This document shows, one piece after another, positions 16,001 through 47,933 of a DNA stretch of 61,251 nt; position 1 is the stretch's first letter, and every line of letters begins with the position of its first letter. The translations under genes were made by a program, and so were the position numbers. This stretch comes from Burkholderiales bacterium (GTDB lineage: Bacteria; Pseudomonadota; Gammaproteobacteria; Burkholderiales; SG8-39): NCBI GenBank assembly GCA_014860355.1, contig JACZJV010000001.1, positions 1 through 61,251 of the forward strand. Direction: 5' to 3'. A model generated the notes under the pieces. It searched no databases, was not told where the DNA came from, and saw only the letters and a program-made list of their open reading frames with translations.

Positions 16001-16076
<76 letters not shown>

Positions 16077-23371: not shown

Positions 23372-23411
23372 CTATTCGTTGCCCCCGATGCTTGCAGCTG
23401 CCAAGAACGAC

Positions 23412-23601
23412 CATTGCGCGCTCCGCGCGCCAACCGCGATTTCTACACGGATAAGAAACGCATCCGCGCAGAAATCGCGGTTACGGAGAAAACCGGAGCA
23501 CGATTTGGGGTGGCTTTTATACAAGATCGTCGATTGCGCACGGATACGCTTTTCATCCGTGCGCAATCGACGATCCGCGCGGACGGCTTTTCGTCCGCGC
23601 A
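23412..23601 (+). repeat. three-hairpin intergenic repeat, copy A
   Basis: Hairpin 1 at 23432-23482 (21-bp arms with two A.C mismatches), hairpin 2 at 23525-23575 (perfect 21-bp arms starting GATCGTCGATTG) and hairpin 3 at 23577-23600 (GCGCGGACG/CGTCCGCGC) are arranged in the same order as in copies B and C. A CG-rich mini-hairpin (TTGCGCGC...GCGCGCCAA) precedes them. It lies between two genes of one minus-strand operon. No protein or tRNA is encoded. Confidence 0.8.
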
Positions 23602-23664
23602 ATATCGCAACTGTGCGAGAACGCGCAAGCGATTCAAACTGCCGCACACGAAAGAACCTTGCCG

Positions 23665-24852
23665 TCACTGCGCAATCCCGTGCACCGCCAGCAGCTGCTT
23701 CATGCGCGCGCAGGCGAGTTCGGGGTCGCGCAGCAGCCCTGCGGCGTCGGCGAGGCGGAACAGCTCGGCCAGATGCAGGATGGAGCGCGCGCTTTGCTGG
23801 CCGCCGACCATGACGAAATGGTCCTGGTGGCCGTTGAGCCAGCTCATGCACACCACGCCGGTCTTGTAGTAGCGCGTCGGCGCGCCGAATATGTGGCGAG
23901 ACAGCGGCACCGTGGGCGCGAGAATCTCGTGGAAGGCCTTGCGATCGTCTTTCGCCAGCGCCGTCAGCGCCGCCGATGCAGCCGGCGCGATGGCGTCGAA
24001 TATTCCCAGCAGCGCATCGGAATGCCCGTCGCCGTCGCCGTCGATGAGCTCGGCGTAATTGAAATCGTCGCCGGTGTACATGCGCACCGCCCGTGGCAGC
24101 CGCCGGCGCATGGCGATTTCCTTCTCCTTGGCTAGCAGCGATATCTTCACGCCGTCCACTTTGGCCGCATTGCGGCCGATGATCTCGAGCGCGACTTCCA
24201 TCGCCTGATAGTGGTCGATGTGGCCCCAGTATCCGGCCAGCGCCGGATCGAACATCTCGCCCAGCCAGTGAATGATTACCGGCTGCCTGACCTGGCCGAG
24301 GATGCGGTCGTAGACCTTGTGGTAATCATCGGGCGAGCGCGCCACACGCGCCAGCGCCCTGCTGGCCATGAGGATGATGCGGCCGCCCAAAGCTTCGATC
24401 GCGCCGACCTGCTCTTCGTAGGCGTGGATCACCTGGTCCAGGCTGGTCGCGGCGTCGGCGGCCAGATGATCGGTGCCGGCGCCGCTGGCGAGCAGCGCCC
24501 CCTTGCAGTCGCGGCTTGCGTCGATCGAGCGGCGGATGAGCTCGAGCGAGGTCTTCCAGTCCAGGCCCATGCCGCGCTGCGCGGTGTCCATGGCCTCGGC
24601 CACGCCCAGCCCCAGGTCCCAGAGGCTGCGCCGATAGGCGATGGTCGCATCCCAGTCGATGGCGCAGCCCTGCCAGGGATCGACCGCGGCCAGCGGATCG
24701 GCCACCACATGCGCGGCGGAATAGGCGACGCGATTGAACGCGGCGGCGGCCTTGCGCGGGAAATTGCGCGGCACCGAAAGCTTGTAGTGCTCCAGCCGTC
24801 CGCCGGCGGCGGGTAATCGGATGTTGAGGCTCAGTTTCCCGGGTGCATTCAT
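23665..24852 (-). CDS. DUF993 family protein, dihydrodipicolinate synthase-like
   Basis: The 395-residue protein resembles the DUF993 branch of the DHDPS/N-acetylneuraminate lyase aldolases: WDATIAYRRSLWDLGLGVAE, GRIILMASRALARVA, PVIIHWLGEMFDPALAGYW, VDGVKISLLAKEKE (the Lys may be the Schiff-base residue) and MYTGDDFNYAELI. It likely performs a retro-aldol or hydrolytic cleavage of a 2-keto intermediate. It overlaps nothing and is followed 10 bp upstream by the Gfo/Idh/MocA gene. Genes of this family often neighbour Gfo/Idh oxidoreductases, as here. Confidence 0.85.
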   Translation of the reverse strand: MNAPGKLSLNIRLPAAGGRLEHYKLSVPRNFPRKAAAAFNRVAYSAAHVVADPLAAVDPWQGCAIDWDATIAYRRSLWDLGLGVAEAMDTAQRGMGLDWKTSLELIRRSIDASRDCKGALLASGAGTDHLAADAATSLDQVIHAYEEQVGAIEALGGRIILMASRALARVARSPDDYHKVYDRILGQVRQPVIIHWLGEMFDPALAGYWGHIDHYQAMEVALEIIGRNAAKVDGVKISLLAKEKEIAMRRRLPRAVRMYTGDDFNYAELIDGDGDGHSDALLGIFDAIAPAASAALTALAKDDRKAFHEILAPTVPLSRHIFGAPTRYYKTGVVCMSWLNGHQDHFVMVGGQQSARSILHLAELFRLADAAGLLRDPELACARMKQLLAVHGIAQ

Positions 24853-24862
24853 ACGCCTTGCC

Positions 24863-26014
24863 TCAGGCTTCGAGCGCGGGCAGGTCCACCCAGCGCCGCT
24901 CGGCCCAGCTCTTGAGCGCGCAATCGACCAGCTGCACGCCTTTCGCACCCTCGAGCAGGTTCCACTTGAACGGCGTGTCCTCGAACAGGTGGCGGATGAA
25001 CAGCTCCCACTCGACCTTGAACGCGTTGTCGTAGGCGGCGTTGCTCGGCACCTCCTGCCAGGTGTCGAAGAAATTGATGCTCTGCGGCACATCCGGATTC
25101 CACACCGGCTTGGGCGTATTCACGCGCGCCTGGCTGTAGCAGCGCTGCAGACCCGCTACGGCCGAACCCAGGGTGCCGTCGACCTGGAAAGTCACCAGAT
25201 CGTCGCGGCGCACGCGCACGTCCCAGGAACTGTTGATATGCGCAATCACCCCGCCCTCGAGTTCGAAGGTGGCGTAGGCCGCATCGTCGGCAGTGGCCTG
25301 ATATTTCTTTCCGTGTTCGTCCCAGCGCTCGGGTATATGGGTCGCGCCGAGGCAGCTGACGCTTTTGACCGTGCCGAACAGATTGTCCAGCACGTAGCGC
25401 CAGTGGCACAGCATGTCGAGGATGATGCCGCCGCCGTCTTCCTTGCGGTAGTTCCAGCTCGGTCGCTGCGCCGCCTGCCAGTCGCCCTCGAACACCCAGT
25501 AACCGAACTCGCCGCGCAGCGAGAGGATCCTGCCGAAGAAGCCCGCATCGCGCAGCATCTTCAGCTTCAGCAGGCCGGGCAGCCACAGCTTGTCCTGCAC
25601 CACGCCGTGCTTGATGCCGGCTTGCTTCGCCGCGCGGTACAGGTCCAGCGCCTCGGCGAGCCCGGTCGCCACCGGCTTCTCGCAGTAGATGTCCTTGCCC
25701 GCGGCGATGGCTTTCTTCAGGATGGTCGGACGCAGCTGCGTCGAGGCCGCATCGAAGAACAGCCTGTCGTCCTTGTTTGCGAGCGCCGCGTCCATGTCGG
25801 TCGTCCAGCGCGCGATGCCGTGGACCTTGGCCAGTTGTTCGAGCTTGTCGCGGCTGCGGCCGACGAGCAGCGGATCGGGCATGACGCGCGTGCCGTCGGC
25901 GAGCGCCACGCCGCCCTGATCGCGGATCGCGCAAATCGAGCGGATCAGGTGCTGGTTGGTGCCCATGCGCCCGGTCACGCCGTTCATGATGATGCCAATC
26001 CGTGTTTCCGCCAT
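24863..26014 (-). CDS. Gfo/Idh/MocA-family NAD(P)-dependent oxidoreductase
   Basis: The 383-residue enzyme probably oxidises a sugar or polyol-like substrate. The N-terminal nucleotide-binding region reads [15 protein letters not shown]; the conserved EKP motif is in [16 protein letters not shown]; the C-terminal sheet includes [15 protein letters not shown] with the catalytic Asp/His, and [16 protein letters not shown] prefer the ATG at 26014, with GGAG upstream, over the GTG at 26017. It sits between a micro-ORF that duplicates its first 12 codons and the DUF993 gene, in the operon headed by the ABC ATPase. Confidence 0.88.
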
Positions 26015-26139
26015 CACCTCGCTCCCGTATTCAGCATCGGCTTCGGCGTGACCGGGCGTAGCGTCCCGGCGGGACGCCGCGCCCGCGCCTTTTCGTCATC
26101 GCTGCCGTTCATGATGATTCCAGGTCGTAGTTTGGCCAT
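26014..26139 (-). pseudogene. micro-ORF duplicating the oxidoreductase N-terminus
   Basis: This 41-codon frame opens [20 protein letters not shown]; its first 12 residues are nearly the same as [12 protein letters not shown] of the Gfo/Idh/MocA gene downstream. At DNA level 17 of 18 bases around GGCATCATCATGAACGGC agree. It looks like a partial tandem duplication, ending in a TGA that touches the oxidoreductase ATG, so it might couple translation. Probably not a functional protein. Confidence 0.4.
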
Positions 26140-26142
26140 CGT

Positions 26143-26907
26143 CTATTCCATTCCGAGCAGCCTGTAGATGTGCCTGGTGTAGTCGCCGAAGTTCTTGTCG
26201 GTTTTCATGTCGAGGGTGCGCGGATGCGCCAATTTGATCGTAATGTTGTCGGCCATGCGCGCCGGCCCGGCTGTGAGCACCACCACGCGCGTTCCCAGGA
26301 ACACCGCCTCGGAAATGCCGTGGGTGACGAAGATGATGGTCTTCTGGCTTTCCTTCCAGATGCGCAGCAGCTCGAGGTTCATTTTCTCGCGCGTCAGCGC
26401 GTCGAGCGCGCCGAAGGGCTCGTCCATCAGGATCAGCTTCGGATCGTGCACGAGGGCGCGCGCAATGGCGGCGCGCTGCTGCATCCCGCCGGAGAGTTCG
26501 TAGGGATACTTGTGCTCGAAGCCGGACAGTCCCACCAGATCGAGCAGCTGCATCGCGCGCTCGCGGCTCGGCTCTGGCGGCAGGCCCAGAATCTCCGCGG
26601 GCAGCAGGACGTTCTCGAGAATGCGCCGCCATTTGAGCAGCAGCGGCTGCTGGAACACCATGCCGACGTCGCGCGCCGGGTTGAACGGGTGCGTGCCCGA
26701 TCCGATCCTGACCTCGCCGGCGTCGTGACCGTGCAGGCCGGCCAGAATTTTCAACAAGGTGGTCTTGCCGCAGCCGGAAGGACCGACCAGCGCGACCAAT
26801 TCGCCCGGCATGACGTCGAAGCTCGCGTCGGATATGGCCAGGTACTCGGCGTCGCGCCGGCGGTAGAGCTTGCGCACGCCGGACAGATGAATGAACGGCT
26901 CAACCAT
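26143..26907 (-). CDS. ABC transporter ATP-binding protein, nitrate/sulfonate/taurine (SsuB/TauB) type
   Basis: This 254-residue ATPase powers an importer. Walker A is GPSGCGKTT, the Q-loop is VFQQPLL, the signature is LSGGMQQR, Walker B is LILMDEP and the H-loop is [11 protein letters not shown]. It belongs to the family that pairs with permeases like 29019-29777 and NMT1/THI5-like binding proteins like 33373-34383, though these lie kilobases away. It heads a five-gene minus-strand unit and has the TTAACC palindrome about 70 bp upstream. Confidence 0.93.
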
Positions 26908-26978
26908 CTGTCGGAATCTCCCTCAATCGCCCCGCTGCGCGCCATTGCGCCTGCCGGCGCCGCGGCGTGTTTCCGCTA

Positions 26979-26994
26979 TTAACCAGTTGGTTAC
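26979..26994. promoter_or_regulatory. TetR-type operator O1 upstream of the ABC ATPase operon
   Basis: TTAACC-AGTT-GGTTAC matches the palindrome found at 27731, 33193 and 36336. It lies between the ATPase start and the 3' end of the tetR gene. Confidence 0.75.
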
Positions 26995-27045
26995 ATTAGA
27001 CACGATGTCGAATGTCCGGTCAAGAAAGCCGCCGCCGCTCCTCGC

Positions 27046-27720
27046 CTACTTCTCCAGATAGCCCAGCACCAGCGCGCTCATGTGCGCCAGGCGCTGCTTC
27101 AGCGCGGGCTCCTGCATCAGGTCGCGCCCGAAGATCGTCGACAGGGTGTGGTTGTTCGACAGGTAAAAATAGCCGAGCGCGGCGATCGATATGTAAAGCT
27201 GCACCGGGTCGACGCCGCGCCTGAACACGCCTGCGCGCTGTCCGCGCCGCAGCACGGCTTCGAGCATTGCAACCAGCGGCGAATGCAGTGCGCGGATTTT
27301 CTTGGATTTCTTCAGCAGCCGCGCGCGGTGCAGGTTCTCGCTGTTGAGCAGGGTGATGAACTCGGGGTGCGCGAGGTAGTATTCCCAGGTGAACCGTACC
27401 AGCCGGCGCATGCCTTCGGCCGGGTCCAGATCGGTGAGCTTGAGCGCCTGCTCGGCCGTGCGGATGTGCTCGTAGGCCGATTCGAGCGCCGCCAGGAACA
27501 GCGCCTCCTTGTTGCCGAAATAGTAGTAGATCATGCGCTTGTTCGAGCCGGCGCGCGCGGTGATCTGGTCGACGCGCGCCCCGCCCAGGCCGCGGCGGGC
27601 GAATTCGACCCGCGCGGCGTCGAGGATGCGCGAGCGGGTGCGCTCTGGGTCGCGCCGGACGGGTTGGTCGGCCTTGCGCGCCCGGGGCTGCGCCACTTTC
27701 GCTTTTTTCTTTTCCGGCAT
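27046..27720 (-). CDS. TetR/AcrR-family transcriptional regulator of the catabolic locus
   Basis: This 224-residue repressor has a basic N-terminal tail (MPEKKKAKVAQPRARKADQP) and a TetR helix-turn-helix at about residues 27-72 (RSRILDAARVEFARRGLGGA, then AGSNKRMIYYYFGNKEALF). The ligand-binding C-terminal domain includes RRLVRFTWEYYLAHPEFITL and RRGVDPVQLYISIAALGYFY. It is divergently transcribed from the MetE-like gene with an operator copy (O2) 10 bp ahead of its start, so it probably represses itself. The same palindrome lies at three other promoters of this locus, making it the likely local regulator. Confidence 0.9.
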   Translation of the reverse strand: MPEKKKAKVAQPRARKADQPVRRDPERTRSRILDAARVEFARRGLGGARVDQITARAGSNKRMIYYYFGNKEALFLAALESAYEHIRTAEQALKLTDLDPAEGMRRLVRFTWEYYLAHPEFITLLNSENLHRARLLKKSKKIRALHSPLVAMLEAVLRRGQRAGVFRRGVDPVQLYISIAALGYFYLSNNHTLSTIFGRDLMQEPALKQRLAHMSALVLGYLEK

Positions 27721-27730
27721 GGTGAAATTT

Positions 27731-27746
27731 TTATCCAAACGGTTAA
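27731..27746. promoter_or_regulatory. TetR-type operator O2 in the tetR/metE-like divergent region
   Basis: TTATCC-AAAC-GGTTAA matches 15 of 16 positions of the consensus TTAACC-N4-GGTTAA (one left-arm change). It sits in the 62-bp gap between two divergent starts, where one bound repressor could block both. Confidence 0.75.
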
Positions 27747-27782
27747 TAATTGCAAACACCGGACTTCCGTTACGGAGAGACC

Positions 27783-28790
27783 ATGGCCGCGCCGCGCATC
27801 AAGACCACCGTCGTCGGTTCCTACCCCATTCCCGACTGGCTCGCCACCAGCCCGACCGAACAGGCGCTCACCGACGCCATGCGCGTGGTCCTGGCGACCC
27901 AGGAGCACGCAGGCATCGACGTCGTCTGCGACGGCGAGCTCTACCGCTACGACATCAACCACCCCGAAACCAACGGCATGATCGAGTACTTCGTGCGCCC
28001 GATGACCGGGGTGCGCCGCGAAATCGGATTCGAGGAGCTGATCGAATACCGCAAGGCGGGCGGCATGCAGTTTCGCGCGCGCCCGCCCGGTGTCGTCGAC
28101 CGGGCGCTCGGCAGCGGAACGCTCGACCTGCCATCGGCCTGCGCGCGCGCCAGGGCGCTCGCTACCAGGCCGCTCAAGTTCACGCTCACCGGCCCGCACA
28201 TGCTCGCCAAGACGCTGCTCGACAAGCATTACAGGGACACGGAGGAACTCGCGCATGCCATCGCCGACGTGCTCGCCGCGCAGGTCCGCCACGTCGACGC
28301 CGACGTGGTGCAGATAGACGAGGCCAACCTGCCCGGGCATCCGGACGAATGGAAGTGGGCGGCCAGCGCGATCAACCGCGTGCTCGATGCGGTGAAGGGC
28401 ACGCCCGCGGTGCACCTTTGCTTCGGCAACTACGGCGGCCAGTCGATCCAGAAAGGAAACTGGGCGAAGCTGATGGACTATCTCAACGCCCTGCACGCCG
28501 ATCACGTGGTAATGGAATGCGCGCACCGCCCGGCGGAGGAGCTTGCCGTGTTTCGCGAGCTGCGGCCCGGGATCGGCCTGGGCCTTGGGGTCGTCGACGT
28601 CAAGCGCACCGAAGTCGAATCGGCCGAGGACATCGCGCGCGCGATCGAGCGCGCGCAGAAGACGCTGGGCGCCGGGCGGGTCAAGTACATACACCCCGAC
28701 TGCGGCCTGTGGATGCTCAAACGCAACGTGGCCGACGGCAAGATCCGCGCGCTGGTGCTGGGGCGCGACCTGTTCGAGGGGCGGAATTAG
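27783..28790 (+). CDS. MetE C-terminal-domain-like (cobalamin-independent methionine synthase family) protein
   Basis: The 335-residue protein is a standalone copy of the UROD/MetE-like barrel, much shorter than full MetE (about 750). It has KTTVVGSYPIPDWL at the start, ADVVQIDEANLPGHPDEW, VHLCFGNYGGQS, DHVVMECAHRPAEEL, and YIHPDCGLWMLKRNVADGKI, which supplies His, Glu and Cys candidates for zinc. ATG at 27783 has GGAGAG upstream. Such short forms may be methyltransferases or C-C/C-S lyases; the catabolic context argues against methionine synthesis. Confidence 0.82.
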   Translation: MAAPRIKTTVVGSYPIPDWLATSPTEQALTDAMRVVLATQEHAGIDVVCDGELYRYDINHPETNGMIEYFVRPMTGVRREIGFEELIEYRKAGGMQFRARPPGVVDRALGSGTLDLPSACARARALATRPLKFTLTGPHMLAKTLLDKHYRDTEELAHAIADVLAAQVRHVDADVVQIDEANLPGHPDEWKWAASAINRVLDAVKGTPAVHLCFGNYGGQSIQKGNWAKLMDYLNALHADHVVMECAHRPAEELAVFRELRPGIGLGLGVVDVKRTEVESAEDIARAIERAQKTLGAGRVKYIHPDCGLWMLKRNVADGKIRALVLGRDLFEGRN

Positions 28791-28811
28791 GAGTCCGGAT
28801 TCCGGCTAGAA

Positions 28812-28995
28812 CCTTGCGCGCTGCGCGCGCCAACCGTGTCTTCTGTACGGATAAAAAGCGCATCCGTACAGAAGACACGGTTCTGGATGAAAACCAGGAC
28901 AGTTTGGGGTTTTACACAAGATCGCCGATTGCGTGCGGACGGCCTTTCGTCCGTACGCAATCGAGTATCCGCGCGGACGGGTTTTCGTCCGCGCA
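28812..28995 (+). repeat. three-hairpin intergenic repeat, copy B
   Basis: Hairpin 1 at 28832-28882 has perfect 21-bp arms starting AACCGTGTCTTCTG; hairpin 2 at 28920-28969 has about 21-bp arms with a few mismatches; hairpin 3 at 28971-28994 is GCGCGGACG/CGTCCGCGC. It shares TTGGGG(T)TTTTA(C/T)ACAA between hairpins 1 and 2 with the other copies. It fills the gap between two converging genes and might act as a two-way terminator. Confidence 0.8.
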
Positions 28996-29018
28996 GGTTT
29001 TCACGGGACCTTCCCGCT

Positions 29019-29777
29019 TCAGTTCACGCGCGCGTCGCGCACCACCAGCAGGTGCTCGAGCAGCAGCACCAGGCCGTACAGCAGCACGCCGATCAGGGTG
29101 ATCAGGATCACCGCCATGAACATCGCGGCCGTGTCCAGCGTCACCTGCACCTGCAGCATCAGGTAGCCCAGGCCTTTCTCGGAACCGAGGAACTCGCCGA
29201 CAATGGCCCCTGCCACGGCCAGCACCGCCGCCACCTTCATGCCCGAAAAAATGTAGGGCAGCGCGCCGGGCAGCTGGATCTTGCTGAAGACCTGCCATTT
29301 CGAGCCGCGCAGGCTGCGCACCAGATCGAGCAGTTCGGGTTCCACTTCGCGCAGGCCGCGCGCCGTGGTCAGGACGATGGGGAACACGCCGATGGAAAAC
29401 GAAATCAGCATATTGGGAAACATGCCATAGGAAAACCAGACGATGATCAGCGGTCCCAGCGCCACCTTGGGGATCATGTTGAGGCTCACCAGCAGCGGCA
29501 TCATCGCGTCCTCCCAGATGCGCGACCATGAAAACGAAAGTGCCAACCCGACCCCTACGAGGACCGCGAGGATGTAGCCGCCGAATATCTCGACGCAGGT
29601 GACGTAGATGTTGTCCCACCAGGGATAGTTCCCGCTGAACAGCGCCCCCAGGGTCGCCTGCGGCGAGGGCATGACGTACTTCGGCACCTTGCCGATCTCG
29701 ACGAACAGGTACCAGGCTGCGACGAGCAGCACATGGGCGAGGATTGCAAGCGTGTAGCGGCGCGGTGTGTCGTTCAT
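29019..29777 (-). CDS. ABC transporter permease, SsuC/TauC type
   Basis: This 252-residue inner-membrane protein has about six membrane helices (for example YTLAILAHVLLVAAWYLFVE, FGGYILAVLVGVGLALSF, NMLISFSIGVFPIVLTTA). The cytoplasmic EAA-like loop LRGSKWQVFSKIQLPGALPY would couple to the ATPase at 26143. It forms the channel of an importer with the NMT1-like binding protein at 33373. In the 72-bp gap upstream, CTAAGGGTCGGGTTAT is only a weak match to the local operator. Confidence 0.92.
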   Translation of the reverse strand: MNDTPRRYTLAILAHVLLVAAWYLFVEIGKVPKYVMPSPQATLGALFSGNYPWWDNIYVTCVEIFGGYILAVLVGVGLALSFSWSRIWEDAMMPLLVSLNMIPKVALGPLIIVWFSYGMFPNMLISFSIGVFPIVLTTARGLREVEPELLDLVRSLRGSKWQVFSKIQLPGALPYIFSGMKVAAVLAVAGAIVGEFLGSEKGLGYLMLQVQVTLDTAAMFMAVILITLIGVLLYGLVLLLEHLLVVRDARVN

Positions 29778-29849
29778 GTCTAAGCCCCGGAATGGCTAAG
29801 GGTCGGGTTATACGCAACTTCAGGTCGTAGCACGATCATACGGCATCTA

Positions 29850-30407: not shown

Positions 30408-30415
30408 CGGTGTCC

Positions 30416-31984: not shown

Positions 31985-32115
31985 GTCGAACACCTCCAGT
32001 CAGTCGTTTGATCGTGCGCCCCGGCCAACCCGCCTGCATGGGCGCAGTCTTTCGCGGGTTCGGCCGCGGCGATCCCGCTTGCCGCAGCGCGCCGGCTGGC
32101 CACGGGCGGGCAGGC

Positions 32116-33177: not shown

Positions 33178-33192
33178 GGCTCATCCTTCCAA

Positions 33193-34383: not shown

Positions 34384-34407
34384 CGGGAGTCCGCGGCCCG
34401 GGCGGGC

Positions 34408-36298: not shown

Positions 36299-36335
36299 GG
36301 GAGGACTCGCTGCGGGAAAATGCGATGCGCCAATA

Positions 36336-36351
36336 TTAACCACGCGGTTAA
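36336..36351. promoter_or_regulatory. TetR-type operator O4 upstream of the epimerase-GNAT unit
   Basis: TTAACC-ACGC-GGTTAA is a perfect 16-bp palindrome and the best copy of the set. Confidence 0.8.
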
Positions 36352-36425
36352 TTCAAGGCAAGATCGCGCAGCGCGCGGAAATCCGGCCCGGCCCGCCGGG
36401 CCGCGCGCCTGCCCCAGGCAAGACA

Positions 36426-37865
36426 TCAGGGCCGGCGATGCTCGCCGACCTTGACTATCTTCATGGTATTGGTGCCGCCGGCCTTGCCTATGGGCTCGCC
36501 TATGGTGAGCACGATCAGGTCGCCCTTTTCCACCAGGCCCGCGCGCAGGAGCACGTTTTCCGATTCCGCCAGCAGCTCCTCGCGGTCGCTGCCGGCATAG
36601 TTCACCATCTCCGGATAGGTGTCGCGCAACAGCGCGCAGCGGTAGCGCGTGGAGGTGCGCGTGGTAAGCGCATAGATCGGCACGCCGCAGTTCAGGCGCG
36701 ACATCCACAGCGCGGTCGAGCCCGACTCGGTCAGCGCGGCGATGGCCTTGACCTTGAGGTGGAAAGCGGTGAACAGCGCCGCCATCGCGATCGACTGGTC
36801 CACGCGGGTGAACACGCGGTCGAGGAACTCGCGATCGAGCGTAACCGGCGTCGAACTCTCGGCAACGGCGCAGATGCGGCTCATCGACGCCACGGTCTCG
36901 ACCGGATACCTGCCGCTCGCGGTCTCGGCCGACAGCATCACGGCGTCGGTGCCGTCGAGCACCGCATTGGCGACATCGGACACCTCGGCGCGCGTGGGCA
37001 CCGGGCTTGCGACCATCGATTCCATCATCTGCGTCGCGGTGATGGTGACCTTGTTGGCCTCGCGCGCCATGCGGATCATGCGCTTTTGCAGCGCAGGCAC
37101 CAGCGCATCGCCGACTTCGACCGCGAGATCGCCGCGCGCCACCATGATGCCGTCGCAGGCCGACATGATGTCCTCCAGGGCCCCGGGCGCGACCGCCTCG
37201 GCGCGCTCGATCTTGGCGATCAGGAAGGCTTCGCCGCCCGCGGCCCGCAGCAACTGGCGCGCCATGTACATGTCCGCGCTCGACTTGGGAAACGACACCG
37301 CGAGAAAGTCCACCTTGATCGAGGCGGCGGTGCGGATGTCTTCCATGTCCTTGCCGGTGAGCGCGGCCGCGGTCAGTCCGCCGCCGCGACGGTTGATGCC
37401 CTTGTTGTTGGACAGCACGCCGCCGTGGACCACGCGGCAGTGCACCTCGTTGCCCGCGACCCGCTCGACCTCGAACTCGATGCGGCCGTCGTCGAGCAGC
37501 AGCACATCGCCCGCGGCGACGTCGCGCGGCAGTTCCTTGTAGTCCAGGCCGGCGCGGCCCTCGTCGCCGAGCGCACAGTCGGCGTCGAGGATGAAGGACT
37601 CCCCCGGTTTGAGCGTGACCTTGCCGTCCTTGAACTTGCCGACGCGGATCTTCGGGCCCTGCAGATCGCCCATGATGCCCACGGTGCGGCCGGTCTTGCG
37701 GCACAGCTCGCGCACCGTCTCGGCGCGCTGCCGGTGATCCTCCGCCGTGCCGTGCGAGAAATTGAGCCGCACCACATCCACGCCCGCGACGAACATGCGT
37801 TCGAGGATTTCGGGGCTGTTGGACGAGGGGCCGAGGGTTGCGACTATCTTGGTGCTGCGTAACAT
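36426..37865 (-). CDS. pyk: pyruvate kinase
   Basis: The enzyme converts PEP and ADP to pyruvate and ATP. The 479-residue protein opens STKIVATLGPSSNSPE with RLNFSHGT following; the signature segments are IMVARGDLAVEVG and MMESMVASPVPTRAEVSDVA, with AVMLSAETASGRYPVE. The length is normal. It stands alone and may end the catabolic locus functionally (pyruvate is the expected product of DHDPS-family lyases), but the genes converge on normal glycolysis regardless. There is no operator at its start. Confidence 0.96.
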   Translation of the reverse strand: MLRSTKIVATLGPSSNSPEILERMFVAGVDVVRLNFSHGTAEDHRQRAETVRELCRKTGRTVGIMGDLQGPKIRVGKFKDGKVTLKPGESFILDADCALGDEGRAGLDYKELPRDVAAGDVLLLDDGRIEFEVERVAGNEVHCRVVHGGVLSNNKGINRRGGGLTAAALTGKDMEDIRTAASIKVDFLAVSFPKSSADMYMARQLLRAAGGEAFLIAKIERAEAVAPGALEDIMSACDGIMVARGDLAVEVGDALVPALQKRMIRMAREANKVTITATQMMESMVASPVPTRAEVSDVANAVLDGTDAVMLSAETASGRYPVETVASMSRICAVAESSTPVTLDREFLDRVFTRVDQSIAMAALFTAFHLKVKAIAALTESGSTALWMSRLNCGVPIYALTTRTSTRYRCALLRDTYPEMVNYAGSDREELLAESENVLLRAGLVEKGDLIVLTIGEPIGKAGGTNTMKIVKVGEHRRP

Positions 37866-37990
37866 GGCGGGACCAGCCTTTTCTTCTTCGCAGAATCGCG
37901 GGGTAATCCGGACGATGCGCCCAGTTTATCATCAGCCTGCGCTATTTTGCCCTGCGCCGGGCCGGGGCCAGCGCATGGGCAGGGCGCCGG

Positions 37991-38338
37991 CTACTTGCAG
38001 CGCAGGTTTGCGCTGGGCGCCTCCATCGGCTGCGTGCAATCGCGCTCGGCGATGGCGCGACCCTGGTCCATTTGCGGCGGGAGGCGTCCGCCCGGCCCGT
38101 AGCTGCTGCCCGGATGATCGTCCTGTACGCCGGCGGCGTACAGGCCCAGCATGAGCAGGGCGAAATAGGCGTTGGCGTCCACGTCGAAGTAGACGACGCC
38201 TGAGCTGTAAGCGCTGCCCGGGGCGGGCACGCTGCCCTGCATCGAGGGCGTTACACCGGCCCCGGTGATGCTGGTGCTGGCGCAGCCCGCGAGCGCGAGG
38301 GCGGTGCACAGCGCTGCAATCGCCGGTCCGGGTTTCAT
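37991..38338 (-). CDS. small lipoprotein of unknown function
   Basis: The 115-residue protein has a lipoprotein signal peptide MKPGPAIAALCTALALAGC, with Cys19 as lipid site. The mature part is Gly/Pro/Ser-rich with YSSGVVYFDVDANAYFALLM, a hydrophobic stretch, and a Cys pair (RDCTQPMEAPSANLRC) that may form a disulfide. I do not recognise the family. It lies between pyk and the control region of urtA. Confidence 0.65.
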   Translation of the reverse strand: MKPGPAIAALCTALALAGCASTSITGAGVTPSMQGSVPAPGSAYSSGVVYFDVDANAYFALLMLGLYAAGVQDDHPGSSYGPGGRLPPQMDQGRAIAERDCTQPMEAPSANLRCK

Positions 38339-38429
38339 CTGCGGATTCTAGACCGCGCCCGCACCAGCGACAAATCCGGGTGTAACTGGACTGGTCAACT
38401 CGTCCACGCGTCCGCGCACCGGCGCAGGC

Positions 38430-38446
38430 GCCACCATTTTGGTGCA
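38430..38446. promoter_or_regulatory. NtrC-like binding site upstream of urtA
   Basis: GCCACCA-TTT-TGGTGCA fits the NtrC palindrome TGCACCA-N3-TGGTGCA: the right half is perfect and the left half has 5 of 7. A second half site (CGCACCA at 38461) lies about three helical turns away. The distance to the sigma-54 box is about 160 bp, suitable for an enhancer. Confidence 0.6.
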
Positions 38447-38597
38447 CGCGCCGATTTCGCCGCACCAACAACGACCATGCGCTGCGCACGGGCCTGCGCG
38501 CGCTGCTGCGCACGGTCCCTGGTCCGGCGCCGCGCCCCGGCCTCATCCACTTCATAAACAGTCGCTTACTCGACGAGGCGCAGCTCGTTCGCGCGGC

Positions 38598-38613
38598 TGG
38601 CACGGCTTGTGCT
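38598..38613 (+). promoter_or_regulatory. sigma-54 (RpoN) promoter of urtA
   Basis: TGGCACGGCTTGTGCT matches TGGCAYR-N4-TTGCW at all but one position; the GG and GC dinucleotides have the required spacing. It is about 90 bp before the urtA ATG and suggests induction under nitrogen limitation. Confidence 0.7.
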
Positions 38614-38701
38614 CAACATCTCCGTAAGCCGGCCTACGAGACGCGCAAGCGCAACCGGTCTGGCTCATGGTTGATTTTTTTTACTTCTGGGAGATGCGAA
38701 C

Positions 38702-39991
38702 ATGGAACGGCGAAGTTTTGTAAAGAGTATTGCGGCAGGCGCAGTGGTTGCGGCAGCGTCATTGATTCCCGGGCATTACGCCCTGGCCGCCGACACCATC
38801 AAGGTCGGCATCCTGCATTCGCTGTCGGGCACCATGGCGATCAGCGAAACCGTGCTGAAGGACGTGACGCTGATGGCGATAGACGATATCAACGCCAAGG
38901 GCGGCGTGCTCGGCAAGAAACTCGAGCCGGTGGTGGTGGACCCGGCCTCGAACTGGCCGCTGTTCGCGGAAAAGGCGCGCCAGCTGCTCTCCCAGGACAA
39001 GGTGGCCGTGGTGTTCGGCTGCTGGACCTCGGTGTCGCGCAAGTCGGTGCTGCCGGTGTTCGAGGAATTGAACGGACTGCTGTTCTATCCGGTGCAGTAC
39101 GAAGGCGAGGAACTGTCCAAGAACGTGTTCTACACCGGCGCCGCGCCCAACCAGCAGGCGATACCCGCAGTCGAATACCTGCTCTCCAAGGAAGGCGGCG
39201 GCGCCAAGCGCTTCGTGCTGCTGGGCACCGACTACGTCTATCCGCGCACCACCAACAAGATCCTGCGCGCCTTCCTGCACTCCAAAGGCATACAGGACAA
39301 GGATATCGACGAGAAATACACGCCCTTCGGCCATTCCGATTATCAGACCATCGTCGCCGACATCAAGAAGTTTTCCGCCGGCGGCAAGACCGCAGTGGTA
39401 TCGACCATCAACGGCGATTCGAACGTGCCCTTCTACAAGGAACTGGGCAACGCCGGACTGAAAGCGACCGATGTGCCGGTGGTGGCGTTCTCCGTGGGTG
39501 AAGAGGAACTGCGCGGCGTGGACACCAAGCCGCTGGTGGGCCATCTCGCCGCCTGGAACTACTTCATGTCGATGAAGAATCCGGCCAACACCGCGTGGAA
39601 AAAGCAGTGGGCCGACTATGCCAAGGCGAAGAAGCTGCCCAACGCCGACAAGCCGCTCACCAACGACCCGATGGAAGCCGCCTGGATCGGCATCCACATG
39701 TGGAAGCAGGCCGTGGAAAAAGCCAAGACCACGGACGTGGACAAGGTGATCGCCGCGATGGCCGGCCAGACTTTCACCGCACCCTCGGGCATCACCTCGA
39801 CCATGGATACGAAGAACCACCATCTGCACAAGTCGGTGTTCATCGGCGAAGTCAAGTCCGACGGCCAGTTCAACGTGGTGTGGAAGACCAAGGGCCCGGT
39901 CAAGGCGCAACCCTGGAGCCCCTTCATACCCGAGAACGTGGGCAAGAAGGACGAGCCGGCCAAGATGTCCGTGAAGGTATCGCAAAAGTAA
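38702..39991 (+). CDS. urtA: urea ABC transporter, substrate-binding protein
   Basis: This 429-residue exported protein captures urea for the UrtBCDE importer. The N-terminus MERRSFVKSIAAGAVVAAAS has a twin-arginine-like RRSFVK motif. The body carries UrtA hallmarks: IKVGILHSLSGTMAISETVL, VAVVFGCWTSVSRKSVLPVF and LLFYPVQYEGEELSKNVFYT. Sigma-54 and NtrC-like sites lie upstream. A strong stem-loop follows the stop, which could raise its transcript level over downstream genes. Confidence 0.97.
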   Translation: MERRSFVKSIAAGAVVAAASLIPGHYALAADTIKVGILHSLSGTMAISETVLKDVTLMAIDDINAKGGVLGKKLEPVVVDPASNWPLFAEKARQLLSQDKVAVVFGCWTSVSRKSVLPVFEELNGLLFYPVQYEGEELSKNVFYTGAAPNQQAIPAVEYLLSKEGGGAKRFVLLGTDYVYPRTTNKILRAFLHSKGIQDKDIDEKYTPFGHSDYQTIVADIKKFSAGGKTAVVSTINGDSNVPFYKELGNAGLKATDVPVVAFSVGEEELRGVDTKPLVGHLAAWNYFMSMKNPANTAWKKQWADYAKAKKLPNADKPLTNDPMEAAWIGIHMWKQAVEKAKTTDVDKVIAAMAGQTFTAPSGITSTMDTKNHHLHKSVFIGEVKSDGQFNVVWKTKGPVKAQPWSPFIPENVGKKDEPAKMSVKVSQK

Positions 39992-40000
39992 GCGCAAGCT

Positions 40001-40029
40001 GGCGGGCTGCGGCGGCGCCGCAGCCCGCC
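40001..40029 (+). other. strong urtA-urtB intercistronic hairpin
   Basis: Thirteen-base arms GGCGGGCTGCGGC / GCCGCAGCCCGCC are separated by 3 nt. There is no T-run, so it is more likely an mRNA-stabilising or attenuating structure behind the highly expressed binding-protein gene than a terminator. Confidence 0.65.
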
Positions 40030-40039
40030 ATTCAAGTAC

Positions 40040-40096
40040 CCGCAGCCGGTTTGCTGCGGCCCGATTCGGGGAAGCGCGAGGGGATACGTCCCCTCG
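40040..40096 (+). promoter_or_regulatory. urtB leader with tandem hairpins (shared GGGGA/TCCCC motif)
   Basis: CCGCAGC/GCTGCGG forms a first hairpin (40040-40059) and CGAGGGGA-TACG-TCCCCTCG the second (40077-40096), ending 27 bp before the urtB ATG. About 50 nt of this leader match the ureD leader, and the second hairpin and its TTGTTAC tail resemble the livK leader. Confidence 0.55.
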
Positions 40097-40123
40097 TCTT
40101 GTTACAGAGTCCAAGAAGGTGCC

Positions 40124-41734
40124 ATGTTCCTGAAAAAAATCGCGCAGGCCCTGGGCCTCGCCGCCTTCCTCTGCTGCACGCAAGCGGCCTGGGCCCTGCC
40201 CGCCGACCTGGTGCTGGCGGTGGCCGCGGGCGACAGCGACGAGCAGGTGGCCGCAGTGGGCAAGCTGGTCGCCTCGGGGGACGCGGGCGTAGACGCCTAT
40301 TTTCAGGCGCTGCTCGAGGGCGTAGTGCAGGTGGCCGGCGGCAGGCGCGTGCTCATCGTGAAGGACACGCAGGGCATCGACGCCGCGAGCGGCGAAAAAG
40401 TCGATCCGCTGCCGGCGGACCTGGAAGACGCAATCGTGAACAACCGGCTGCGCGGCACGCTCGAAGGCGCGCGCAGCGCACTCAAACTGAGTTCTCCGGA
40501 CCGCGCCCTGCGGCTGGCCGCGGTCAAATCGCTGGAAGACGGCGCGCGCGAAGAAATGCTGCCGCTGATCGCCACTGCGCTCGCGCGCGAAACCGACCCG
40601 CAGATCAGGCAATCGCTCACCCTGGTGCAGGCTGGCATACAGCTGAAAAGCGCCGACGCTGCGCTGCGCCTGGCGGCGGTCAAGGCGCTGGCGCAAAGCG
40701 ACAACCCCAACACCAAGATGCTGCTGCTCGGCCGGCTGGAAAAAAAGGGCGAGGTCTATGCCGAGCCGGACGCGGCCGTGCGCGACGCGGCGCAGGCCAC
40801 GCTGAAAGCGGTGCAGGCGCGGCTCAGCACGGCGGATCGCATCAACCAGGTGTTCACCGGCGTCAGCCTCGGCTCCATCCTGCTGCTCGCGGCGCTGGGC
40901 CTCGCGATCACCTACGGCCTGATGGGCGTGATCAACATGGCGCACGGCGAATTGATCATGGTCGGCGCCTACGGCACCTACCTGGTGCAGAACCTGTTCC
41001 GGGCGCAGCTGCCGGCCCTGTTCGACTGGTACCTGCTCGCCGCCGTGCCGGCGGCATTTTTCGCCTCGGCCCTGGTCGGCATTCTGCTTGAGCGCAGCGT
41101 GATCCGCTTTCTTTACGGCCGGCCGCTGGAAACCCTGCTCGCCACCTGGGGCATCAGCCTGATCCTGATCCAGTCGGTGCGCACCCTGTACGGCGCGCAG
41201 AACGTGCAGGTGGAAAATCCGGTGTGGATGTCCGGCGGCGTGGAACTCATGGCGAACGTCGTGTTCCCCTGGAACCGCGTGCTCATCATCGGCTTCGCCG
41301 CGGCGGTGCTGCTGCTGGTCTGGTTTGTGCTCACGCGCACGCGGCTGGGCCTGTTCGTGCGCGCGGTCACGCAGAACCGCGGCATGGCCAGCTGCGTCGG
41401 CGTGCCGACCGCGCGCGTCGATACGCTGGCCTTCGGCCTGGGATCGGGCATCGCCGGGCTCGCCGGATGCGCCCTGTCGCAGATCGGCAACGTCGGCCCC
41501 GACCTGGGCCAGACCTATATCGTCGATTCCTTCATGGTGGTGGTGCTGGGCGGCGTCGGCCAGCTCGCCGGCACCGTGTATGCGGCGCTGGGCCTGGGCA
41601 TGGCGAACAAGTTTCTCGAAGCCTGGTCGGGCGCGGTGCTCGCCAAGATCGCCATTCTGGCTTTCATCATCGTGTTCATACAGAAGCGCCCGCAGGGCCT
41701 GTTCGCCCTCAAGGGCCGCATGGCGGACAGCTGA
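40124..41734 (+). CDS. urtB: urea ABC transporter permease UrtB
   Basis: The 536-residue permease has a signal sequence, a ~230-residue N-terminal extracytoplasmic domain rich in Ala/Leu helices (long UrtB type) and a C-terminal LivH-like membrane domain from about residue 240: VSLGSILLLAALGLAITYGL, MGVINMAHGELIMVGAYGTY, LETLLATWGISLILIQSVRT. MFLKK at the start follows AAGAAGGTG. The stop overlaps the urtC ATG (TGATG). Confidence 0.95.
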   Translation: MFLKKIAQALGLAAFLCCTQAAWALPADLVLAVAAGDSDEQVAAVGKLVASGDAGVDAYFQALLEGVVQVAGGRRVLIVKDTQGIDAASGEKVDPLPADLEDAIVNNRLRGTLEGARSALKLSSPDRALRLAAVKSLEDGAREEMLPLIATALARETDPQIRQSLTLVQAGIQLKSADAALRLAAVKALAQSDNPNTKMLLLGRLEKKGEVYAEPDAAVRDAAQATLKAVQARLSTADRINQVFTGVSLGSILLLAALGLAITYGLMGVINMAHGELIMVGAYGTYLVQNLFRAQLPALFDWYLLAAVPAAFFASALVGILLERSVIRFLYGRPLETLLATWGISLILIQSVRTLYGAQNVQVENPVWMSGGVELMANVVFPWNRVLIIGFAAAVLLLVWFVLTRTRLGLFVRAVTQNRGMASCVGVPTARVDTLAFGLGSGIAGLAGCALSQIGNVGPDLGQTYIVDSFMVVVLGGVGQLAGTVYAALGLGMANKFLEAWSGAVLAKIAILAFIIVFIQKRPQGLFALKGRMADS

Positions 41735-42834
41735 TGGGTCCGCTGGGTGCCACGATATCCCGACTCTACGGGCGCCGCGGCTGGATCGCGCTAGCCGCGT
41801 GCGCGCTTATTCTGTTCGTAGCCTTTCCGCTGGCCAACCTGGCCCTGCCCCAGGGCAGCCTGTTCCATGTTTCGGACTACAGCGTCGCGCTCATCGGCAA
41901 GATCATGTGCTACGCCATCGTGGCGCTGGCCATGGATCTGGTCTGGGGCTACACCGGCATCCTGTCGCTGGGCCACGGCCTGTTCTTCGCCCTGGGCGGC
42001 TACGCCATGGGCATGTACCTGATGCGCATGATCGGCCGCGAAGGCCAGTACCAGAGCGAACTGCCCGATTTCATGGTGTTCCTGAACTGGAAGGAATATC
42101 CCTGGTACTGGAGCTTCACCGACCATTTCTGGTACGCGGCGCTGCTGGTGGTGCTGGTGCCGGGGCTGCTCGCCTTCGTCTTCGGCTTTTTCGCCTTCCG
42201 CTCGCGCATCAAGGGGGTGTATTTCTCCATCATTACCCAGGCGCTCACCTTTGCCTTCATGCTGCTGTTCTTTCGCAACGACACCGGCTTCGGCGGCAAC
42301 AACGGCTTCACCGACTTCAAGCGCATCCTCGGCTTTCACATCGCCACCGCCGAGACGCGCATGGCGCTGTTCGTGGCCACCGGCGCCGTCCTCCTGCTCA
42401 CCCTGCTCGCAGCGCGCGCCATCGTCGCCTCCAAACTCGGCCGGGTGCTCACCGCGATCCGCGACGCCGAATCGCGCGTGATGTTCTGCGGCTACAACCC
42501 GGTGCACTACAAACTGTTCATCTGGACGGTATCGGCGGTGATCTGCGGCATCGCCGGCGCGCTCTACGTACCGCAGGTGGGCATCATCAATCCCAGCGAA
42601 ATGTCGCCCGCCAACTCGATCGAGATCGCCATCTGGGTGGCGGTGGGCGGGCGCGGCAGCCTGGTGGGCGCAATCCTCGGCGCCGGCCTGGTCAACGGCG
42701 CGAAAAGCCTGCTCACCGTGGCCTTTCCCGAATACTGGCTGTTTTTCCTCGGCCTGCTGTTCATCCTGGTCACATTGTTCCTGCCCCAGGGCGTGATCGG
42801 GCTGCTCAAACCATCGCGCGCGAAGCGCACATGA
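41734..42834 (+). CDS. urtC: urea ABC transporter permease UrtC
   Basis: This 366-residue LivM-like membrane protein pairs with UrtB. Features include LVWGYTGILSLGHGLFFALG, the FRSRIKGVYFSIITQALTF segment, DTGFGGNNGFTDFKRILGF and IWVAVGGRGSLVGAILGAGL. The ATG at 41734 overlaps the urtB stop, and its own stop overlaps the urtD ATG (ATGA), so translation is coupled. Confidence 0.96.
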   Translation: MGPLGATISRLYGRRGWIALAACALILFVAFPLANLALPQGSLFHVSDYSVALIGKIMCYAIVALAMDLVWGYTGILSLGHGLFFALGGYAMGMYLMRMIGREGQYQSELPDFMVFLNWKEYPWYWSFTDHFWYAALLVVLVPGLLAFVFGFFAFRSRIKGVYFSIITQALTFAFMLLFFRNDTGFGGNNGFTDFKRILGFHIATAETRMALFVATGAVLLLTLLAARAIVASKLGRVLTAIRDAESRVMFCGYNPVHYKLFIWTVSAVICGIAGALYVPQVGIINPSEMSPANSIEIAIWVAVGGRGSLVGAILGAGLVNGAKSLLTVAFPEYWLFFLGLLFILVTLFLPQGVIGLLKPSRAKRT

Positions 42835-43658
42835 ACGCCGCGGCGATCAACGATCCGGATTCCTTCGGCGGGGGCGCAGCGGCGGGCGCCCGGGTGCTAG
42901 CGCCCGGCATCGACGTCTCGCACAAGACCATCCTCTACCTCGAGGACATCAGCGTCAGCTTCGACGGCTTCAAGGCGCTGAACAAACTCTCGCTGGACAT
43001 CGACAACGGTGAGCTGCGCTGCATCATCGGCCCCAACGGCGCGGGCAAGACCACCATGATGGATGTGATTACCGGCAAGACCCGGCCCGATTCGGGCAGC
43101 GTATTCTTCGGCCAGACCATCGACCTCGCCAAACTCACCGAGGCCGAGATCGCCCACGCCGGCATAGGCCGAAAGTTCCAGAAGCCGACAGTGTTCGAGC
43201 AGCACAGCGTGTTCGAGAACCTGGAACTCGCGATGAAGACCGACAAGCGCGTGCGCGCGAGCCTCACCGCCAGGCTCGATTCGGCGCAGCACGACCGCAT
43301 CGCGGACACGCTGCGCCTGATCCATCTCGCCGGAGTAGCCGGCCGCGACGCGGGACTGCTGTCCCACGGGCAGAAGCAGTGGCTGGAGATCGGCATGCTG
43401 CTGATGCAGGAGCCGCGCGTCCTGCTGCTCGACGAGCCGGTCGCGGGCATGACCGACGAGGAGACCGAGCGCACCGGCGAATTGTGCAGGACCCTGGCGG
43501 GCAAGCACTCGGTGGTGGTGGTCGAGCACGACATGGATTTCGTCGCCGGCATCGCCAACAAGGTGACGGTGCTGCACGAGGGCAGCGTGCTCGCCGAAGG
43601 CAGCATGGGCGAGGTGCAGAACGATGCGCGCGTGATTGAAGTGTATTTGGGACGGTGA
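42831..43658 (+). CDS. urtD: urea ABC transporter ATP-binding protein UrtD
   Basis: The 275-residue LivG-like ATPase has Walker A GPNGAGKTTMMD, the UrtD-type FQKPTVFEQHSVFENLELAM region, the signature LLSHGQKQWLEIGML and Walker B VLLLDEPVAGM. A ~30-residue Gly/Ala-rich N-terminal extension precedes the usual start. It is followed not by urtE but by a 310-bp gap containing repeat element C. Confidence 0.96.
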   Translation: MNAAAINDPDSFGGGAAAGARVLAPGIDVSHKTILYLEDISVSFDGFKALNKLSLDIDNGELRCIIGPNGAGKTTMMDVITGKTRPDSGSVFFGQTIDLAKLTEAEIAHAGIGRKFQKPTVFEQHSVFENLELAMKTDKRVRASLTARLDSAQHDRIADTLRLIHLAGVAGRDAGLLSHGQKQWLEIGMLLMQEPRVLLLDEPVAGMTDEETERTGELCRTLAGKHSVVVVEHDMDFVAGIANKVTVLHEGSVLAEGSMGEVQNDARVIEVYLGR

Positions 43659-43715
43659 CCGGTGCTTAACCTTGACGACGAGAAATGCGCCTCCCTTGCT
43701 TTGAAGCCTTCATTT

Positions 43716-43887
43716 TGCGCGGACGAAAAACCGTCCGCGCGGATCGTCGATTGCCTGCGGATGAAAAGCACATCCGCAGGCAATCGACGATCTTGTATAA
43801 AAACCCGCGCTGTATTCGGTTTTAACCATAACCGTGTTTTTGGTACGGATGGTGTTTATCCGTACCAAAAACACGGTTGGCGCGCGT
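43716..43887 (-). repeat. three-hairpin intergenic repeat, copy C (inside the urt operon)
   Basis: It reads in reverse relative to A and B. On the minus strand, hairpin 1 (43878-43830, perfect 21-bp arms starting AACCGTGTTTTTGG), hairpin 2 (43792-43742, perfect 21-bp arms starting GATCGTCGATTGCC) and hairpin 3 (43740-43717) follow in the same order. It lies between urtD and urtE and so splits an operon that is normally continuous. Confidence 0.8.

Positions 43888-46233: not shown

Positions 46234-47933
<1,700 letters not shown>

Follow-up and report, generated by a model that had tools for sequence, protein, structure and literature searches.

Three copies (A, B and C) of an intergenic element with a core of hairpins are present in the window, the whole 61,251-nucleotide stretch of Burkholderiales DNA that was analysed. 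In our best explanation, to which we assign a probability of about 0.55, they belong to a family of non-autonomous, MITE-like mobile elements with targets probably containing TA, whose ends decay and whose hairpin core is selectively kept, likely acting as DNA hairpins independently of orientation.

Architecture and distribution of the family

The coordinates and the order of parts given in the preliminary description, a mini-stem (H0), hairpin H1, a linker, hairpin H2 and hairpin H3, hold for all three copies. The features are as follows.

23372–23415, + strand: copy A, decayed left end (T1 region), reaching the start codon of the minus-strand neighbour (alignment with the G006 ortholog)
23416–23430, + strand: copy A, H0 mini-stem GCGCGC-TCC-GCGCGC (sequence; conserved across copies)
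23432–23482, + strand: copy A, H1, 21-bp arms with mismatches, 9-nt A-rich loop (fold, self-match)
23483–23524, + strand: copy A, linker (sequence; orthologous sites diverge by 39% here)
23525–23575, + strand: copy A, H2, perfect 21-bp arms, T-rich loop (fold, self-match)
23577–23600, + strand: copy A, H3, GCGCGGACG/CGTCCGCGC (sequence, fold)
23601–23664, + strand: copy A, decayed right end (T2 region) (sequence, end consensus, ortholog alignment)
28816–28830, + strand: copy B, H0 (sequence)
28832–28882, + strand: copy B, H1, perfect (fold)
28920–28969, + strand: copy B, H2, imperfect (fold)
28971–28994, + strand: copy B, H3 (sequence)
43717–43740, − strand: copy C, H3 (sequence)
43742–43792, − strand: copy C, H2, perfect (fold, self-match)
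43830–43878, − strand: copy C, H1, perfect (fold, self-match)
43880–43921, − strand: copy C, H0 with a GC-rich hairpin insertion of ~29 nt (sequence, other copies)

As had been described, pairing is perfect in four of the six long hairpins (A-H2, B-H1, C-H1 and C-H2), with mismatches in the arms of A-H1 and B-H2; the H3 arms are identical across A, B and C, and the example given of a compensated arm change, TTCTGTA versus TTTTGGTA, is found in the sequence. The mini-stem had been reported in A and B, where it is indeed present; C has it too, interrupted by the extra GC-rich hairpin, an insertion that recurs at loci L022, L023, L024 and L146. Against dinucleotide shuffles, the RNA folds of A, B and C have z scores of −9.0, −10.1 and −13.5, respectively, with none of 200 shuffles as stable in each case.

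Comparison with copies elsewhere showed that these elements form the inner part of a larger unit, ~275 bp long and bounded by inverted ends outside the hairpins, in the order left end T1–H0–H1–linker–H2–H3–right end T2. The consensus terminal inverted repeats are TATACGGCGTCTTAAATGCCG and (reverse complement) TATACGTGGCGACTTAAATCGCGCC, and the element end reads TATACGGCGTCTTAAAT…. These repeats have decayed in many copies, A, B and C among them; the G006 ortholog of copy A retains a recognisable T1. In addition, the H1 core is the reverse complement of the H2 core (CGGAT-loop-ATCCG), and the consensus loops are complementary. Kissing of the two loops was rejected as a candidate interaction, as this complementarity comes without covariation between the H1 and H2 loops (6.61 vs 6.60 in shuffled data, n = 75).

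A structure-model search identified 67 strong copies in the 5.1-Mb source genome and matches in 24 of 98 genomes of the same family, source genome included; model R1 was built on 23 of 24 copies, L071 being dropped for an insertion. The hosts are uncultured environmental bacteria, known mainly through metagenomes, with dozens of copies per genome. The family had not been recognised from sequence, and across the whole window no Rfam match reaches the gathering threshold; a sub-threshold search of the copy A region gave nothing credible (best 22.4 bits, threshold 47.7). Plasmids and phages contained no blastn match to copy A, viral contigs no match to the exact H3 pattern and the source genome no match to a strict T2 pattern. 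Searches of the open-licence PMC literature by sequence string and by repeat family found no description of the family.

Insertion and divergence in place

Empty sites in relatives demonstrate insertion. Near-identical elements occupy two sites of one genome (L193 and L199), differing by an H2 deletion in one of them. The L193 site is uninterrupted in 5 of 14 genomes of the genus, and at this one site, where junction sequences have diverged, four of the five empty sites agree in length with a duplicated TA. Copy C also has a clean empty site in the relative G006. Inverted ends, empty sites and a probable TA duplication thus support the MITE-like option of the preliminary description. Among 12 DDE_3 and 20 Y1 transposase loci, no ends matched the element, the best having 4 mismatches over 16 bases of either end; such a 4-mismatch match occurs in 5 of these 32 loci, including L175, which itself holds an element, and in 1 of 40 shuffled sequences searched on one strand. 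The missing end match weakens the claim of a named transposase and leaves the MITE-like claim intact. Some lineages have lost their element or carry a damaged one (L261 first copy, L263, L270, L274, L289 and L290), and hence the elements are not essential.

At the same site in different species, parts of the element diverge to very different degrees. In the flank-found set, the fast parts are T1 (48%), the linker (39%), T2 (29%), the middle of H1 (28%) and the middle of H2 (19%); the slow parts are the H1 tip (1.7%), H3 (2.8%), H0 (3.5%), the H2 base (5.8%), the H2 tip (7.0%) and the H1 base (8.3%). H3 conservation is partly built in, and so inflated, for loci L079–L172, because the search pattern required an exact H3; divergence of H3 is 1.1% in 34 copies found by BLAST in the source genome. 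Since H0, H3 and the H1 tip diverge by 2–4%, compared with 29–48% for the ends and 39% for the linker, the core seems to be held in place by selection.

Among known systems, the bacterial MITEs reviewed in PMC2229807 (Correia/NEMIS, ERIC/IRU, RUP, CIR and YPAL) are, in excerpts of that review, likewise short, non-coding and mostly intergenic, with long stem-loops and inverted ends carrying 5′-TA. They also duplicate their target, as is consistent with TA at one site here. They are smaller (~100–200 bp vs ~275 bp), and the present family differs from them, as excerpted, by its GC-rich core of four separate hairpins, the lack of an Rfam match and strong in-place covariation. Pneumococcal BOX elements, of which there are 125 in the genome studied in PMC3049150 and which its authors judge likely parasitic, resemble the family by description in the excerpted text: modular intergenic repeats with stem-loops, inverted ends and a variable number of modules. 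However, BOX belongs to another phylum, and in our family the core is conserved in place.

Paired changes and gene context

The compensating change between arms proposed in the preliminary description is strongly confirmed, both across many copies and at orthologous sites. In 80 copies, a subset reduced by hand from 122 full ones, 28 of 57 pairs are altered on both sides and 98.0% of cells are paired; both-sided cells number 242, compared with 52.3 (sd 8.3) after shuffling, a value attained in none of 500 shuffles. In all 122 full copies, Watson-Crick cells make up 95.3% of H1 and 93.1% of H2. At orthologous sites, 19 independent pairs comprising 777 stem pairs show 74 changes that are both-sided and still Watson-Crick, and 56 that are one-sided. 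Twelve intact pairs ascertained by their flanks (496 stem pairs) show 54 and 33, respectively; these come from five sites and are therefore not all independent. This count excludes the first L261 copy, L263, L270, L274, L289 and L290, which are damaged, and also the second L261 copy. We infer that selection causes this coupling.

Arm length is nearly fixed. The inner arms measure 12/12 in 128 of 136 H1 and in 107 of 107 H2, the H1 length of L094 in the 136-copy survey being a regular-expression artefact. In L005 (13/13) and L290 (11/11), as well as by eye in L024, both arms have changed in length by a matching 1 bp and still pair perfectly, and the length of one arm alone changes in five of the 136 H1.

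The genes next to the three copies are listed below.

22523–23371, − strand: xylose isomerase-like TIM-barrel protein, adjoins A (Pfam PF01261)
23665–24852, − strand: DUF993 protein, 3′ end toward A (Pfam PF06187)
27783–28790, + strand: cobalamin-independent methionine synthase-like protein, 3′ end toward B (Pfam PF01717)
29019–29777, − strand: ABC-transporter permease, 3′ end toward B (Pfam PF00528)
42831–43658, + strand: ABC ATPase of branched-chain amino acid type, adjoins C; presumably urtD-like, by position (Pfam PF00005, PF12399)
43969–44658, + strand: ABC ATPase, adjoins C; presumably urtE-like, by position (Pfam PF00005)

Of the 155 copies that have a gene no more than 400 nt away on each side, 149 adjoin the 3′ end of a gene, in either orientation: 54 are convergent, 51 tandem in one orientation, 44 tandem in the other and 6 divergent. 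The other gaps comprise 213 tandem, 76 divergent and 50 convergent cases. Gene contexts were derived from a codon model specific to this analysis. REP, BIME and REPIN sequences are also located behind genes. Stem mismatches were classified as G·U (114), A·C (83) and other (66). The G·U:A·C ratio runs in opposite directions in the two hairpins (25:46 in H1, 89:37 in H2), owing mostly to two homologous positions. Overall, the mild G·U excess, which has no link to the direction of transcription, argues against RNA of one strand and favours a hairpin that works in either orientation; the same excess makes some RNA-level contribution possible.

Alternative explanations and proposed function

Paired changes could also arise in a selfish MITE without host function, with pairing maintained by template switching at quasi-palindromes during replication, in which one arm serves as template for the other and both change together, although we consider this somewhat unlikely. 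Template switching is a mutational process and not an element family; as documented in excerpts of PMC8794818, it predicts compensatory change in a single event and loop inversion in perfect stems. It agrees with the surplus of both-sided over one-sided changes at orthologous sites, with the matched 1-bp changes, with mismatches lacking a strong strand bias and with three loops that seem inverted (L146 H1, L103 H2 and, by eye, L211 H2). Compared with that source, however, its signs are weak here: beside the matched length changes, inversions are rare (1 of 154 H1 and 1 clear case in 124 H2) and both-sided changes show no significant tendency to lie side by side (14 vs 10.8 expected, p 0.13). 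Moreover, it leaves unexplained the fixed arm length and the conservation of H0, the H1 tip and H3 relative to the linker. An RNA-level 3′ UTR element, whose hairpins in either orientation would shield mRNA 3′ ends or serve RNase III, is unlikely in our estimate. Location behind genes, strong RNA folds, arms of about two helical turns and the slight G·U surplus speak for it, as does the NEMIS/RNase III precedent in excerpts of PMC2229807. On the other hand, minus-transcribed copies show no A·C excess (G·U:A·C 22:17) and plus-transcribed ones are scarcely G·U-rich (35:31). This, together with the lack of orientation preference, also tells against the noncoding RNA initially suggested.

The initial suggestion of a two-way terminator fared no better, and a bidirectional intrinsic terminator appears very improbable. 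Convergent and 3′ locations would suit it, and behind H2 on the element's minus strand comes an interrupted tail, TCTTGTATAA. With this tail, H2 passes a loose scan in copies A and C and fails it in B; around C the scan scores 4 loose matches, compared with a shuffled mean of 0.7. Yet A and B give one match each (shuffled means 0.7 and 0.3), no hairpin is followed by an uninterrupted T-run, the plus strand has no comparable tail, and C splits two ABC-transporter ATPase genes that lie 1 nt apart in G006. Kinship with REP/BIME sequences, whose palindromes are preserved despite sequence change according to excerpts of PMC2817692, extends to many extragenic palindromes per genome and an alternating or mirror arrangement, so that the BIME-like option stands as a resemblance. 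It does not go beyond that: in an alignment of 80 copies the palindromes lack a GTAG-type head, and no RAYT gene flanked by family repeats was found. A REPIN/BIME-like element mobilised by a REP-associated tyrosine transposase (Y1) is accordingly most improbable of all, even with H1 and H2 as mirror-image palindromes and Y1 proteins in 17 of 24 searched genomes (36 matches). Among the 20 of these 36 loci examined, just one (L175) has an element nearby, on a single side, and none is flanked on both. The 21-bp arms and terminal inverted repeats outside the palindromes also differ from RAYT-associated REPINs as excerpted, the loops do not covary, and the inverted ends with a probable TA site suggest another kind of transposase.

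In the MITE-like reading with a selected core, the elements moved into sites that probably contain TA, and most now lie directly behind genes. Once inserted, they lose their transposition ends to decay, and selection would retain the core: the sequence is conserved in H0, in the tip and base of H1 and of H2, and throughout H3, and midway along the H1 and H2 arms only pairing and the 21-bp length persist. The core would most likely act as a pair of hairpins independent of orientation, more probably as extruded DNA (a cruciform or single-strand hairpins) than as RNA of one strand, and a putative host factor may bind the extruded hairpins at 3′ gene boundaries. It is possible, though we hold this only tentatively, that the family has been wholly co-opted by its hosts, the dispersed cores being selected as orientation-independent DNA structures (extruded hairpins or cruciforms, two helical turns per arm) that mark 3′ gene boundaries; the conserved tips and feet may then serve a putative protein.

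The many long, often perfect 21-bp stems, many of them at the same site across species, allow paired change to be observed in place. The family thereby makes testable the long-standing question of whether compensatory change proceeds via selection on two mutations or via copying of one arm, and it would give an example of a mobile element that is conserved after insertion in its core and not in its ends.

Anatomy of the hairpin element

The hairpin order of the preliminary description (mini-stem H0, hairpin H1, linker, hairpins H2 and H3) was found in three copies in the window.

Copies of the hairpin element in the window
Copy A, 23412-23601: hairpins in the common order
Copy B, 28812-28995: hairpins in the common order
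Copy C, 43716-43887, inverted: hairpins in the common order

As had been claimed, pairing is perfect in four of the six long hairpins. All three copies form much stronger folds than shuffled sequence (z = -9.0 for A, -10.1 for B and -13.5 for C). The mini-stem, attributed earlier to A and B, is present there and also in C, where it is interrupted by some 29 nt of inserted GC-rich sequence. This hairpin insert, CCGCGAAGCAAGTCCTCCyGGGGGACGCG, lies within H0 at 43880-43921 of the window, recurs at loci L022, L023, L024 and L146, and is perhaps a second small mobile module.

Alignments of copies give the consensus GCGCGC-tng-GCGCGC for H0, 21-bp arms AACCG-n11-CGGAT with an A-rich loop, usually 9 or 7 nt long, for H1, a variable linker some 38 nt long, 21-bp arms GATCG-n11-CGGAT with a T-rich loop for H2, and GCGCGGACG-loop-CGTCCGCGC for H3. 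In consensus, the core of H1 is the reverse complement of the core of H2, and this extends to the loops. Inverted-repeat ends (T1, left, TATATACGGCGTCTTAAATGCCGTCGCATGCC; T2, right, GGCGCGATTTAAGTCGCCACGTATA) flank the core, and two-ended copies span some 271-277 bp, counted from TACGG to CGTATA. An end-pattern search located 24 left ends, spread over 6 of the 14 genus genomes; all are followed by H0 or its remnant and some then by partly deleted cores. At L216 the core is inverted with a left-type end on either side, which suggests inversion or nesting. In tandem arrays (L061, L010, L080, L146, L213), H3 with a GC-rich loop is followed by a similar spacer of about 65 nt (AAGTTCGAnCGCTGCAGCTCGATGT...) and the next H0. 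In many copies the H1 tip, CGGATAA...GCGCATCCG, is like the apex of enterobacterial REPs given in PMC2817692, a likeness that may be chance.

The window holds other repeats. A 57-nt direct repeat (88%; 8818-8874 and 15968-16024), the second copy of which overlaps the 3' end of a tRNA gene (16004-16076, minus strand), resembles a pair of attachment sites bounding an integrated element some 7 kb long. Also present are three direct repeats of 231 nt (76-88%), at 673-903, 8510-8740 and 11858-12088, one inside this putative element and one just before it. An Rfam 5_ureB_sRNA match (112.8 bits, 46385-46668, minus strand), which lies antisense to a long plus-strand ORF within a region that we take to be urease-like, probably reflects coding conservation rather than RNA.

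Compensating changes and constraint on the core

The compensating arm changes claimed earlier are strong. In 80 copies (57 pairs, 500 shuffles), 98.0% of cells were paired versus 93.0% after shuffling, 28 pairs versus 12.4 had changed on both sides, and both-side-changed cells numbered 242 versus 52.3 (sd 8.3), counts that are not independent events since the copies are related. None of the 500 shuffles equalled any of these three values, and shifting the partner column abolished the pairing signal. The H1 pair of columns 42-68, for instance, is UA in 41 copies, CG in 15, GC in 14 and AU in 2. Comparison of orthologous sites answers the kinship problem: among 777 stem pairs in 19 orthologous full-copy pairs (each copy used once), 74 had changed on both sides and were still Watson-Crick, versus 56 changed on one side and 7 on both without pairing. 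The H1 arms at the L042 site differ in each of the six species compared: they pair perfectly in five, one of which shows matching 1-bp deletions in its two arms, and carry two mismatches in the home genome.

Copies dead after insertion would diverge alike in all parts. Relative to the home-genome copy, 12 intact orthologs at five sites, found by flanks alone, diverge by 48% in T1, 39% in the linker, 29% in T2, 28% in the H1 middle, 19% in the H2 middle and 17-30% in loops. Divergence is low, by contrast, at the H1 base (8.3%), H2 tip (7.0%) and H2 base (5.8%), in H0 (3.5%) and H3 (2.8%), and at the H1 tip (1.7%). The 19 orthologous pairs agree with this pattern, with the reservation that H3 conservation in L079-L172 is partly by construction, the search pattern having demanded exact H3. 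Inner arm length is nearly fixed, at 12/12 in 128 of 136 H1 and 107 of 107 H2.

Template switching, which according to PMC8794818 could yield paired changes in one step, is weakly indicated as their source: length changes are matched in both arms and inverted loops occur, if rarely, but clustering of the changes is not significant and the sequence-conserved blocks are beyond its reach. Retention of the core and template switching may act together.

Selection on one RNA strand predicts G·U far above A·C. Mismatches in 122 copies comprised 114 G·U, 83 A·C and 66 others, and one-sided changes in the 19 orthologous pairs 28, 14 and 14. If copies were transcribed by flanking genes, G·U would be favoured on the same strand and A·C on the opposite one; the G·U:A·C ratios were 35:31 for same-strand, 22:17 for opposite-strand and 36:19 for convergent contexts. 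H1 and H2 have opposite mismatch biases, due largely to a pair of homologous sites close to the tip, and a search for covariation between the H1 and H2 loops found none. These sequence comparisons take away the chief argument for an RNA of one strand; they do not prove a function in DNA, which we put forward as a proposal.

Filled and empty sites

One genome holds near-identical elements at two sites (L193, L199), except for an H2 deletion in L199. The L193 site is uninterrupted in genus genomes G008, G000, G009, G003 and G007, and in the first four its length fits arrival of the element with a TA duplication. The L215 site is filled in G011 and G000 and uninterrupted in eight genomes, a count that omits G002, G003 and G007 (state not settled) and G004 (no match). 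Retrieval for seven home-genome sites yielded 43 regions, of which L298 and L299 rest on one flank; the 41 two-flank regions comprise 18 with an element and 23 without, the latter including four intermediate-length gaps with no detected element (L260, L271, L277, L278) and two regions that carry a different insert (L275, L276). G006 has an element at site A, whereas in G004 this site is empty. Site B has two tandem copies in G002 and no detected element in G008 and G004. Site C is empty in G006, where the ABC ATPase genes lie 1 nt apart versus 310 nt in the home genome.

Gene calls from our own codon model place a gene within 400 nt on each side of 155 copies, out of 195 distinct ones with fragments counted in. 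Of the gaps that hold these 155, 54 are convergent, 95 tandem (51 + 44 by orientation) and 6 divergent, versus 50, 213 and 76 among the remaining gaps of 60 nt or more at the same loci. Few copies occupy divergent, promoter-side gaps, and orientation preference is absent. Loose terminator-like matches numbered 1 in A, 1 in B and 4 in C.

Host range and proposed mechanism

In the home genome (5.09 Mb, 202 contigs), BLAST with copies A and C gave 68 and 59 matches, lists in which full copies stand alongside fragments and opposite-strand self-matches. R1, a structure model of H2-H3 built from 23 sequences, gave at least 120 matches at E up to 1e-4 (150 of 8081 candidates scored): 67 are full-length at 78 bits or more, and most of the remaining 53 repeat these places on the other strand. 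Matches occur in each of the 13 further genus genomes examined, and family-wide in 24 of 98 genomes (home included) and 6 of 26 genera; no DNA match was found in any of 24 genomes belonging to the order's other families, or in the viral contigs, plasmids and phages searched. The named matches listed (at least 94 stretches) come from environmental MAGs; almost all bear the label Betaproteobacteria, Burkholderiales or Proteobacteria, and several names point to groundwater. At L133, on contig MIAC01000171.1 labelled Rhodospirillales, the sequence on either side of the element matches a betaproteobacterial MAG (L081) at 87-89% identity; this contig is likely mis-binned.

A search of the open-licence literature found no description of this hairpin-repeat family. 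It works like bacterial MITEs (PMC2229807) and resembles them in the features tested, and is like BOX elements by their description alone (PMC3049150). On the two features tested it is not a REP/RAYT system (RAYT, REP-associated tyrosine transposase).

In the reading we favour, a MITE-like element has inserted behind genes, probably at TA, and its hairpin core has then been kept as an orientation-independent structure, probably of DNA. Copy number differs widely within the genus, with 2-3 copies each in G004, G007 and G012 versus 34 to at least 48 in other members, and the three low-copy genomes are useful for tracing the cause of amplification.
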